This document shows positions 12,470 through 14,518 of a stretch of 64,000 nt of DNA, piece by piece. Position numbers and translations under genes: made by a program. Each line of letters begins with the position of its first letter. The stretch's first letter is position 1. Origin of the DNA: Massilia niastensis DSM 21313 (GTDB taxonomy: Bacteria; Pseudomonadota; Gammaproteobacteria; Burkholderiales; Burkholderiaceae_D); contig NZ_KB908084.1 in assembly GCF_000382345.1 (NCBI RefSeq), forward strand, positions 1 to 64,000. Reading direction: 5' to 3'. The notes below the pieces were generated by a model. It was not told where the DNA came from. It did not search any database and was given only the letters and a program-made list of their open reading frames with translations.

Positions 12470-13966
12470 CTAGATCAGGCCGAGGGTCAGCGCCTTCAGC
12501 GTGGCGGCCGCCCGCGTCGAGCACTCCAGCTTGCGGAAGATGCTCTCGACGTGGGTGCGCACCGTGCTCGGGCTGATCCGCATGGCGCGCGCCGCTTCCT
12601 TGTTGCTCTCGCCTACGCTGATCCTCTGCAGCACCTCGATCTCGCGCGCCGACAGGGTCGTGCGCGCACGCACCGGGGCCGGCTGGGCGCCGGCCGCCGC
12701 CGCGGCCACCGCGGCCACCGCCGCGCGGTCGAAGCGCCCGCCCGTCACCTGGGCCTCCAGCAGGGCGCTGGCGGCGCCGTGGTCGTGGGCCGCGCGCCAC
12801 GGGCGCGGCGAGCGCAGCGCCACGAAGGCCGCGGCGGCGGCCAGCAGGCGCTGGGGCAGGCCGAGCGTGTCCGGGCCGAGGCTGCGGAAATAGCCGCTGC
12901 CGTCCAGCCGCTCGTACACGTGCGAGGCCAGCGCGGCGTCCGCGCCCAGGCCCGCGATGCGCGCCCCCGCGCGCGCGGTCCAGTAGGGCACCAGGCGCAC
13001 CGCTTCCCAGTCGGCCGCACTGAGCTTGCCGCGACGTTCCCACACCGTATTCGACACGGCCGCGCGGCCGATGCCGTGCAGCAGGGCGGCGCGCGCCAGG
13101 CTGCGCTGCTGCACCTCGGGCAGGCCGGCCAGGGCCGCCGCCTGCTGGGCCAGCGCGGCCACGCGGCGCGAATAGCCGGCCAGCCAGGGCAGCTTCAGTT
13201 CGATCATGTCGGCCACCAGGGTCAGCGGGACCGAGACCGGCAGGAAGGAGGGCGCATCGGCTTCCCCGGCTTCCCCGGCATCGTGCTCGAGTTCGTCCAG
13301 CCAGGCGCGCGCATGCTCCGGCAGCAGGCGCACCAGCGCGGCCGGATACTTGGCGTCGGCCATCCCGGCGATCATGCCGAGGGCGGCGTCGACGCCGTGG
13401 GCGCGCGCCAGGATCTCGAAGTCGCCAGCCAGGGTCACGTAGAACACCAGTTCGGGAATCTCCGGCCCGCGCAGGCCGAGCGGAATCCCGCCGCCGCCGT
13501 ATTGCTCGAACACGTGGCGCAGCCCCAGCTCGACCGCGGCCGGCAGGCCCATCATGGCCGCGATGTCGCCCGAGACCTCGCAATGCACCTGGGCCAGCGG
13601 CGCGATGTTGTCCAGGCGCCGCGCCATGCCGGGCGACAGGGTATGGGTCAGCATCGCATTGCGGCCGCCGACGTCGTCGCCCAGCAGCTCGGCGAAGCCG
13701 GCCGCGTTGGCGGTGCAGCCCGACCAGCGCAGCTGCGCCACCATGCGCGCATGCTGGCAGGTGGCGGCGTCGGCGCCGGCGGCGCGCGCGATGCGCAGCG
13801 CCAGGCGGGCGCCCCGTTCCGACTGGTCGATCGGCTGGCCCATGCTGAGATCGCCGACGATGGCGAGCGCCTGCATGGCCTGGTCCAGGGTGACCGTGTC
13901 GTGGCCGTGCAGGTCGGAAAAGGAAGGCGGCAAGGAAGTGGAATGCACCTGCGGTCCTGCCTCCAT
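12470..13966 (-). CDS. HD-GYP-like regulator with C-terminal LuxR domain
   Basis: A 498-residue cytosolic protein of two helical HD-related halves and a LuxR helix-turn-helix (about 430-495: LSAREIEVLQRISVGESNKEAARAMRISPSTVRTHVESIFRKL). HD-GYP landmarks are present but altered: LLHGIGRAAVSN in place of HDIGK, and ERLDGSGYFRS in place of HHERxDGxGYP. Phosphodiesterase activity is doubtful, though ligand sensing remains possible. A 12-codon leader with a strong ribosome site overlaps this start by one base (TGATG), and this ATG has no convincing site of its own, so translation is probably coupled. The AhpD-like gene upstream may share its transcript. Confidence 0.75.
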   Translation of the reverse strand: MEAGPQVHSTSLPPSFSDLHGHDTVTLDQAMQALAIVGDLSMGQPIDQSERGARLALRIARAAGADAATCQHARMVAQLRWSGCTANAAGFAELLGDDVGGRNAMLTHTLSPGMARRLDNIAPLAQVHCEVSGDIAAMMGLPAAVELGLRHVFEQYGGGGIPLGLRGPEIPELVFYVTLAGDFEILARAHGVDAALGMIAGMADAKYPAALVRLLPEHARAWLDELEHDAGEAGEADAPSFLPVSVPLTLVADMIELKLPWLAGYSRRVAALAQQAAALAGLPEVQQRSLARAALLHGIGRAAVSNTVWERRGKLSAADWEAVRLVPYWTARAGARIAGLGADAALASHVYERLDGSGYFRSLGPDTLGLPQRLLAAAAAFVALRSPRPWRAAHDHGAASALLEAQVTGGRFDRAAVAAVAAAAAGAQPAPVRARTTLSAREIEVLQRISVGESNKEAARAMRISPSTVRTHVESIFRKLECSTRAAATLKALTLGLI

Positions 13967-14004
13967 CAGGGCACCGCGGCGCGCAGCTTGATGGACTTGG
14001 GCAT
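13966..14004 (-). CDS. 12-codon leader peptide coupled to the HD-LuxR gene
   Basis: Encodes MPKSIKLRAAVP and stops at TGA, whose A is the first base of the HD-LuxR ATG. GTGAGGAAACCC just upstream gives a strong ribosome site at normal spacing. This is what a translational-coupling or attenuation leader looks like; there is no known homologue I can name. Confidence 0.45.
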   Translation of the reverse strand: MPKSIKLRAAVP

Positions 14005-14059
14005 GGGTTTCCTCACATTCTCAGGGGATGGCGCGCCGCACCGCGGCGCGCTTCGGCAA

Positions 14060-14518
14060 TTACATGCCCGGGGCAGGCTGCTCCGGGATCTGGTTGCGCA
14101 GGCTCAGGTTGATCGCGTTCCAGCCCCGGATGGCGGCGATAGTATAGCCAAGTTCGGCAATCTCGGCGTCGCTGAAGTGCTCGCGCAGGGCCGGCCAGGC
14201 GGCGTCGGTATCGTCGCGCTGCGGCAGCGCGTTGACGGCGTCGGCCCAGGCCAGCGCGGCGCGTTCGCGCTCGCTGAAGAACGGCGCTTCGCGCCAGGCG
14301 GAGAGTGCATTCAGGTGGCGCGGATCGGCGCCCTGCTTGACCAGGTCGCGCCAGTGCATGTCGACGCACATGCCGCAACCGTTGACTTGCGAAACGCGCA
14401 GGTGGATGAGTTCGACCAGGCGCTCGCCGAGCGCGCCCTTCTTGTTGACCGTCGACAGGTTGACCAGGGCTTTCAGGTTGGCCGGCGCCAGGGTGAACAG
14501 GGGGATACGTGCGGACAT
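14060..14518 (-). CDS. carboxymuconolactone decarboxylase / AhpD-like protein
   Basis: A 152-residue all-helical protein. CGMC at 48-51 with His55 (CGMCVDMH) matches the AhpD redox centre, so it is more likely a peroxide or alkylhydroperoxidase-type protein than a true decarboxylase. The C-terminal NAINLSLRNQIPEQ is usual in the family. It reads away from the Tat-exported hydrolase at 14819 and lies 93 bp ahead of the HD-LuxR regulator. Confidence 0.87.
   Translation of the reverse strand: MSARIPLFTLAPANLKALVNLSTVNKKGALGERLVELIHLRVSQVNGCGMCVDMHWRDLVKQGADPRHLNALSAWREAPFFSERERAALAWADAVNALPQRDDTDAAWPALREHFSDAEIAELGYTIAAIRGWNAINLSLRNQIPEQPAPGM

Follow-up and report, generated by a model that had tools for sequence, protein, structure and literature searches.

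How do ribosomes reach the start codon of a bacterial regulator gene when that codon has a weak ribosome site of its own and shares a base with the stop codon of a 12-codon open reading frame (ORF)? The question arises at one locus of Massilia niastensis DSM 21313, within a 64,000-nt stretch of DNA that was analyzed as a whole (hereafter, the window). Here, a regulator of 498 aa comprising HD_5 and GerE (LuxR-type HTH) domains (Pfam matches at 1.3e-29 and 4.8e-16, respectively) is encoded on the minus strand (12470..13966, start ATG 13966). Upstream of it, on the same strand, lies a gene of the AhpD/carboxymuconolactone decarboxylase (CMD) family (14060..14518; PF02627, 1.1e-20; TIGR00778, 1.9e-16), with 93 nt between its stop codon and the regulator ATG. 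No terminator was called between the two genes, and they are probably carried on one transcript.

The mini-ORF, MPKSIKLRAAVP, spans 13966..14004 of the minus strand, from its ATG (14004-14002) to its TGA (13968-13966), the last A of which doubles as the A of the regulator ATG (13966-13964). An earlier, sequence-only reading of this DNA had described a 12-codon leader overlapping the regulator start through TGATG (13968-13964), and this description is exact to the letter (ATG CCC AAG TCC ATC AAG CTG CGC GCC GCG GTG CCC TGA). Two elements of a coupled pair are present, namely, a stop and a start on one strand that overlap, or nearly so, and an upstream ORF with a ribosome site, in this case, an AGGA (14013-14010) within the ribosome-site-like GTGAGGAAA (14008..14016, minus strand), 5 nt before the ATG. 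The duplex formed with the anti-SD has an energy of -6.2 kcal/mol at the mini-ORF vs -3.0 kcal/mol at the regulator ATG. The former site had been called strong, which is slightly generous, given that 8.3% of all ATGs in the window score as well. All 11 non-start codons of the mini-ORF end in G or C, a mild coding-like sign, in a gap with a G+C content of 69%. The regulator had likewise been said to lack a good site of its own, and this holds for the ATG but not for the in-frame GTG codon 7 (13948-13946), the possible SD of which, GGAGGCAGGA (13955..13964, minus strand; -9.3 kcal/mol), lies in the first regulator codons and is the best ribosome site of the region; -9.3 kcal/mol or better is reached at 1.4% of the 3511 ATG and GTG triplets of the window. 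For independent initiation, the downstream gene offers a weak ATG and a strong GTG, and, where initiation at an internal ATG had been named as a refuting condition, the better internal site belongs to this GTG instead. Codon 7 could act alone or take ribosomes that end at the TGA.

The chance expectation was estimated by counting ATG-started ORFs of 4-40 codons that overlap the ATG. Among 20,000 dinucleotide shuffles of the gap, such an ORF appeared in 12.8% with any SD allowed and in 0.55% with an SD of -6.2 kcal/mol or lower, and comparable ORFs overlap 10 of the 1614 ATGs of the window (both strands, mini-ORF included). A mini-ORF of this kind is unusual for one given gene and, because of the latter frequency, near chance at one case per window, being expected roughly once among the gene starts of 64 kb.

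Relatives of the regulator were sought in 62 genomes of the genus (own genome included), 40 of which gave a match at E <= 1e-60, and in 392 genomes of the family (again with the own genome), 47 of which matched at E <= 1e-150; a scan of genome contigs gave 15 stretches and 14 loci, three matching the GerE end only. Loci were taken for part of these matches and yielded, after removal of duplicates, 38 regulators (E <= 1e-80), designated here by L numbers; L047, with its N-terminus in a second alignment piece, was set aside, leaving 37 regulators, including that of the window. An overlapping mini-ORF, defined as an ATG-started ORF of 4-40 codons with a stop beginning 6 bases before to 4 bases after the ATG start, was found in 0 of the 36 distinct relatives, the nearest of which is 75-76% identical to the window's regulator. 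Conservation in orthologues was the test that the sequence-only reading had set for its leader, and it went against the leader throughout this set: an ORF kept in orthologues, the mark of a conserved regulatory leader, is not seen. A conserved peptide is rejected for the relatives compared, and the suggestion that the peptide may itself act is unsupported. The leader was also considered as the start of a longer known gene and rejected as such. The best other match listed in the genus (G002:C12; 36 nt, 86%, E 5.1e-5) sits inside a 484-aa ORF, at LESIKLRAEV, and was taken as a chance coding match. The 133-nt segment had no convincing second copy among the matches listed for the 62 genus genomes, own genome included, with ~14 candidates scored per genome.

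When the stop was allowed to lie up to 13 bases before the ATG, ORFs appeared in L012 (18 codons), L045 (3), L014 (37-46) and L068 (28-35). The last two regulators are outside the branch of the window and possess the leaderless-type promoter described below, and their ORFs, of 28-46 codons, end 7 and 12 nt before the ATG; near-start ORFs therefore arise where none is needed. A branch-wide pattern of mini-ORFs feeding the start (window, L012, L045) was considered and dropped, the ORF of L012 being the frame-shifted N-terminus of the regulator. The corresponding shuffle probabilities at an SD of -4 kcal/mol or lower (window, 0.034; L012, 0.0038; L045, 0.043) come from ranges and thresholds picked after the SD results had been seen. 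The three-codon ORF of L045 sits next to the regulator's own SD.

The weak site at the regulator ATG is a trait of the family that a leaderless-type promoter accounts for in most relatives, and it is not tied to the leader. Of the 37 starts, 36 have an SD of their own weaker than -4 kcal/mol, L045 (-5.9 kcal/mol) being the exception; L012 was measured at a later ATG. Of the 37 regulators, 30 (for example, L015, L027, L034 and L064) carry a TAnnnT hexamer that stops 6-7 nt short of the ATG, compared to 3.0 on average and at most 10 of 37 in shuffled upstream letters, and in 25 of the 30 the hexamer is preceded by TTG at a 17-nt spacer (spacers of 15-19 allowed); column information is highest at -35 to -33 and -12 to -7. 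The set-aside L047 has TAAAGT, 6 nt from an ATG. These features point to a conserved sigma70-type promoter that would start transcription on the ATG, giving leaderless mRNAs across the family, with the -10 element placed for such a start in the family (30/37) but not in the window copy. Conservation extends to columns -19 and -23 as well, and because the rows are related, shared descent explains part of the promoter signal; moreover, the starts were selected with N-terminal patterns drawn up after a first look, a procedure that favors ATGs yet should not give rise to the spacing seen in the promoter. Among the leaderless transcripts of Burkholderia cenocepacia, as reported in PMC4603805, regulators are over-represented and a TA-rich motif lies directly upstream, as we infer for this regulator family; unlike these betaproteobacterial leaderless regulator mRNAs, the window copy is devoid of that promoter arrangement. 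A literature search on leaderless HD-domain LuxR regulators in Massilia found no paper. A leaderless-type promoter in the family, missing from the branch of the window, is a better supported result than the leader, and retention of this promoter across the family is a testable prediction.

The seven regulators without the hexamer (those of the window, L038, L012, L039, L045, L013 and L011) all fall within one 11-member branch (SH-aLRT 100 in a quick tree), the other four members of which (L020-L023) have TACGAT and no TTG. The CMD gene is directly upstream of the regulator in the window, L038, L045, L013, L011 and L012 (not in L039) and also in L064, which yet keeps a TTG-17-TACAGT promoter. 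The distance from the CMD stop to the regulator ATG is 10 nt in each of L038, L013 and L011, 30 nt in L045 and 35 nt in L012 (97 nt to the later ATG, the shorter distance being to the homologous one), where no mini-ORF was detected in the 35-nt gap by inspection. A promoter and terminator scan of the window gap called none, under a 9-of-12 rule that would miss the relatives' TTGCCG/TACAGT (score 8); the absence of the promoter from the window rests on the hexamer and TTG-spacer comparison, not on this strict scan.

The window, L011 and L013 share a distance of 57 nt between the ATG and a conserved CACGGC, which places the regulator ATG at 13966 at the ancestral position. In L012, the homologous ATG is 56 nt from CACGGC and the start frame is shifted by one base, a loss within the first 56 nt that represents either a true frameshift or an assembly error. 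Two other copies of the regulator look damaged, L026 with an internal TGA and L047 with its two alignment pieces.

The start of the mini-ORF and its SD lie within a 67-nt stretch that is seen only in the window and is bounded by a 14-nt direct repeat, GCGCGCCGCGGTGC, the two copies of which (14038..14051 and 13971..13984, minus strand) are 67 nt apart, the second one inside the mini-ORF. This stretch looks like a local insertion. With one 67-nt unit removed, the gap shrinks to 26 nt and aligns with the gap of L012 at GCGCGCCGC and ATGGAG, a similarity between short and GC-rich sequences that is suggestive only. A mobile element was considered as the source of the unit and rejected, the other matches in the own genome, among those listed, being short.

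In the predicted fold of the RNA, the bases of the regulator start are almost fully paired, as is the GGAGG before GTG codon 7 in naked RNA, and opening the interval from -18 to +15 would cost 7.2 kcal/mol at the mini-ORF start, 22.5 kcal/mol at the regulator ATG and 16.7 kcal/mol at GTG codon 7. A possible hairpin (13962..13995, minus strand; -14.1 kcal/mol) joins mini-ORF codons 4-6 (UCCAUCA) to the regulator start (UGAUGGA), with 5.2% of 1000 mononucleotide shuffles folding as well, and with the mini-ORF forced open, the start still costs 9.9 kcal/mol to open, compared to 11.9 kcal/mol otherwise. A 9-bp GC hairpin with no T run (14031..14051, minus strand) is located shortly after the CMD stop, and GCGGCGCGC has two alternative pairing partners, the two copies of GCGCGCCGC. 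Over the wider 146-nt region, stability does not exceed that of shuffled sequences (z -0.28, with 73 of 200 shuffles matching it), and an RNA switch was rejected on this ground; neither the stable alternative structures nor the terminator of a leader-peptide system were found in the gap.

We consider the mini-ORF, at just under even odds (a probability of roughly 0.45), to be a lineage-specific minicistron of recent origin that supplies ribosomes to a regulator start no longer served by its leaderless promoter and the amino acid sequence of which is immaterial. Most members of the family have a weak-SD ATG under a sigma70-like promoter so placed that transcription would begin on the ATG; the branch of the window is without this promoter, the window's regulator lies behind the CMD gene, and the 67-nt unit contains the SD and start of the mini-ORF. 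On a shared CMD-regulator transcript, ribosomes would load at GTGAGGAAA, read through the 12 codons while melting the weak hairpin that covers the regulator start, and terminate at UGAUG, after which they would reinitiate either on the overlapping ATG or at GTG codon 7. The minicistron reading is supported by the duplex energies (-6.2 vs -3.0 kcal/mol), the predicted opening costs (7.2 vs 22.5 kcal/mol) and the homologous position of the ATG, along with the missing leaderless promoter in the branch, the 10-nt CMD gaps, the repeat-bounded unit and the likeness of its parts to the E. coli constructs and integron ORF-11 described below. It is weakened by the lack of conservation (0/36), a chance rate that is not small and the stronger SD of GTG codon 7; by L012, with its 35-nt gap and no mini-ORF, and L045, with 30 nt, an SD of its own and a three-codon ORF; and by the unneeded ORFs of L014 and L068, the small saving upon forced opening and the precedent of pvuIIC-pvuIIR, where genes overlap but are not coupled. 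Of the termination-reinitiation form proposed in the sequence-only reading, the anatomy fits (SD-led ORF, UGAUG, weak ATG site) but the leader is absent from 36/36 relatives; the coupling reading is plausible and only partly supported. The fuller scenario, in which the leaderless promoter was lost and the SD-less start, stranded in an operon, was rescued by a minicistron born on the 67-nt insertion, seems to us unlikely; if true, it would capture, within a single lineage, how initiation can pass naturally from leaderless to coupled. If the mini-ORF does feed the regulator, a short SD-led overlapping ORF would suffice to take a leaderless-dependent gene into an operon, and the locus would do on a chromosome what ORF-11 does in integrons and what bicistronic designs do in engineered constructs.

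Several known systems resemble this arrangement in part. ORF-11 (and ORF-18) of the class 1 integron attI1 site is also a short SD-led ORF, of 11 codons, the translation of which supplies a downstream start that lacks a proper initiation region, and residue changes in ORF-11, a translational enhancer minicistron, matter little according to a review (PMC8876359); its stop is provided by whichever cassette is inserted, and its effect has been measured, whereas the stop of the mini-ORF overlaps the ATG and the case is known from sequence. Overlapping ATGA/TGATG gene pairs share the UGAUG-type junction of termination-reinitiation, and 13 of the 14 pairs tested in PMC6728339 were strictly coupled, but these pairs consist of genes, the downstream member of which typically has an SD, in contrast to the 12 unconserved codons of the mini-ORF. 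The coat-lysis UAAUG of RNA phage GA and the lacZ constructs reported in PMC9955659 similarly combine an AGGA-led short ORF, a stop/start overlap and an SD-less downstream ORF, in E. coli and with UAA rather than in Massilia with UGA, the latter instance being read from the DNA letters. In that E. coli study, an AGGA-led upstream ORF with UAAUG fed the SD-less ORF at six and seven codons, and upstream ORFs of three to five codons did not, with the recycling factor present; the three-codon ORF of L045 is shorter than the lengths that worked there. For pvuIIC-pvuIIR, an overlap without coupling is reported (PMC2997769), and a 2025 review mentions short upstream ORFs that merely deliver ribosomes (PMC12548453).

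The main rival reading, at somewhat below even odds, is that the mini-ORF is incidental, a product of a small insertion, and that the regulator initiates alone, chiefly at GTG codon 7 or, weakly, from the ATG. The SD score of codon 7, rare among the starts of the window, fits this explanation, as do the restriction of the mini-ORF to the window, the similar ORFs at 10 of 1614 ATGs and the poor conservation of the residues that a start at codon 7 would remove. Retention of the ATG position in L011 and L013 argues against it, and so do the almost complete predicted pairing of the GGAGG and the fact that a GTG codon 7 with a strong SD is found in none of the 36 other regulators (L064 has GTG at codon 7 with an SD of -1.5 kcal/mol). 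Furthermore, strong SD-like sites also occur at internal starts of members with the leaderless-type promoter (L033, GTG15, -11.8 kcal/mol; L028, ATG16, -8.2 kcal/mol), so that such a site need not be used and the SD score alone is no proof of the use of codon 7.

That translation of the regulator depends on the CMD gene, with ribosomes crossing the 93 nt or opening structure and the mini-ORF acting as a relay or being irrelevant, is improbable. The recurrence of CMD before the regulator in the window and six relatives, three of them with the 10-nt gap, speaks for such dependence, but 93 nt is long for reinitiation, the efficiency of which is expected to drop with distance (PMC6728339), the 9-bp GC hairpin stands between the two genes, and L064, with CMD upstream, has a promoter of its own. 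Still far less credible is a sensing leader peptide, acting by attenuation or ribosome arrest, the nascent chain or codons of which would switch the regulator on a signal: the short ORF with an SD and the alternative pairing of GCGGCGCGC are compatible with it, but the peptide contains no run of one amino acid and is not conserved, the folding z-score is unremarkable, and the gap has no called terminator.

The HD-type domain of the regulator carries LLHGIGR in place of the HD of HD-GYP enzymes and GYF in place of their GYP. The H-G form was found in 30 of the 37 regulators with a regular expression that the other 7 did not match, and the domain may bind rather than cleave. Two of the regulators, no more than ~2 kb from one another, are present in each of G018:C1, G021:C9, G022:C1 and G054:C19, and the same 6.59-Mb genome as that of the window encodes a paralogue of most of the regulator (G000:C27:47332-48672), 32% identical.
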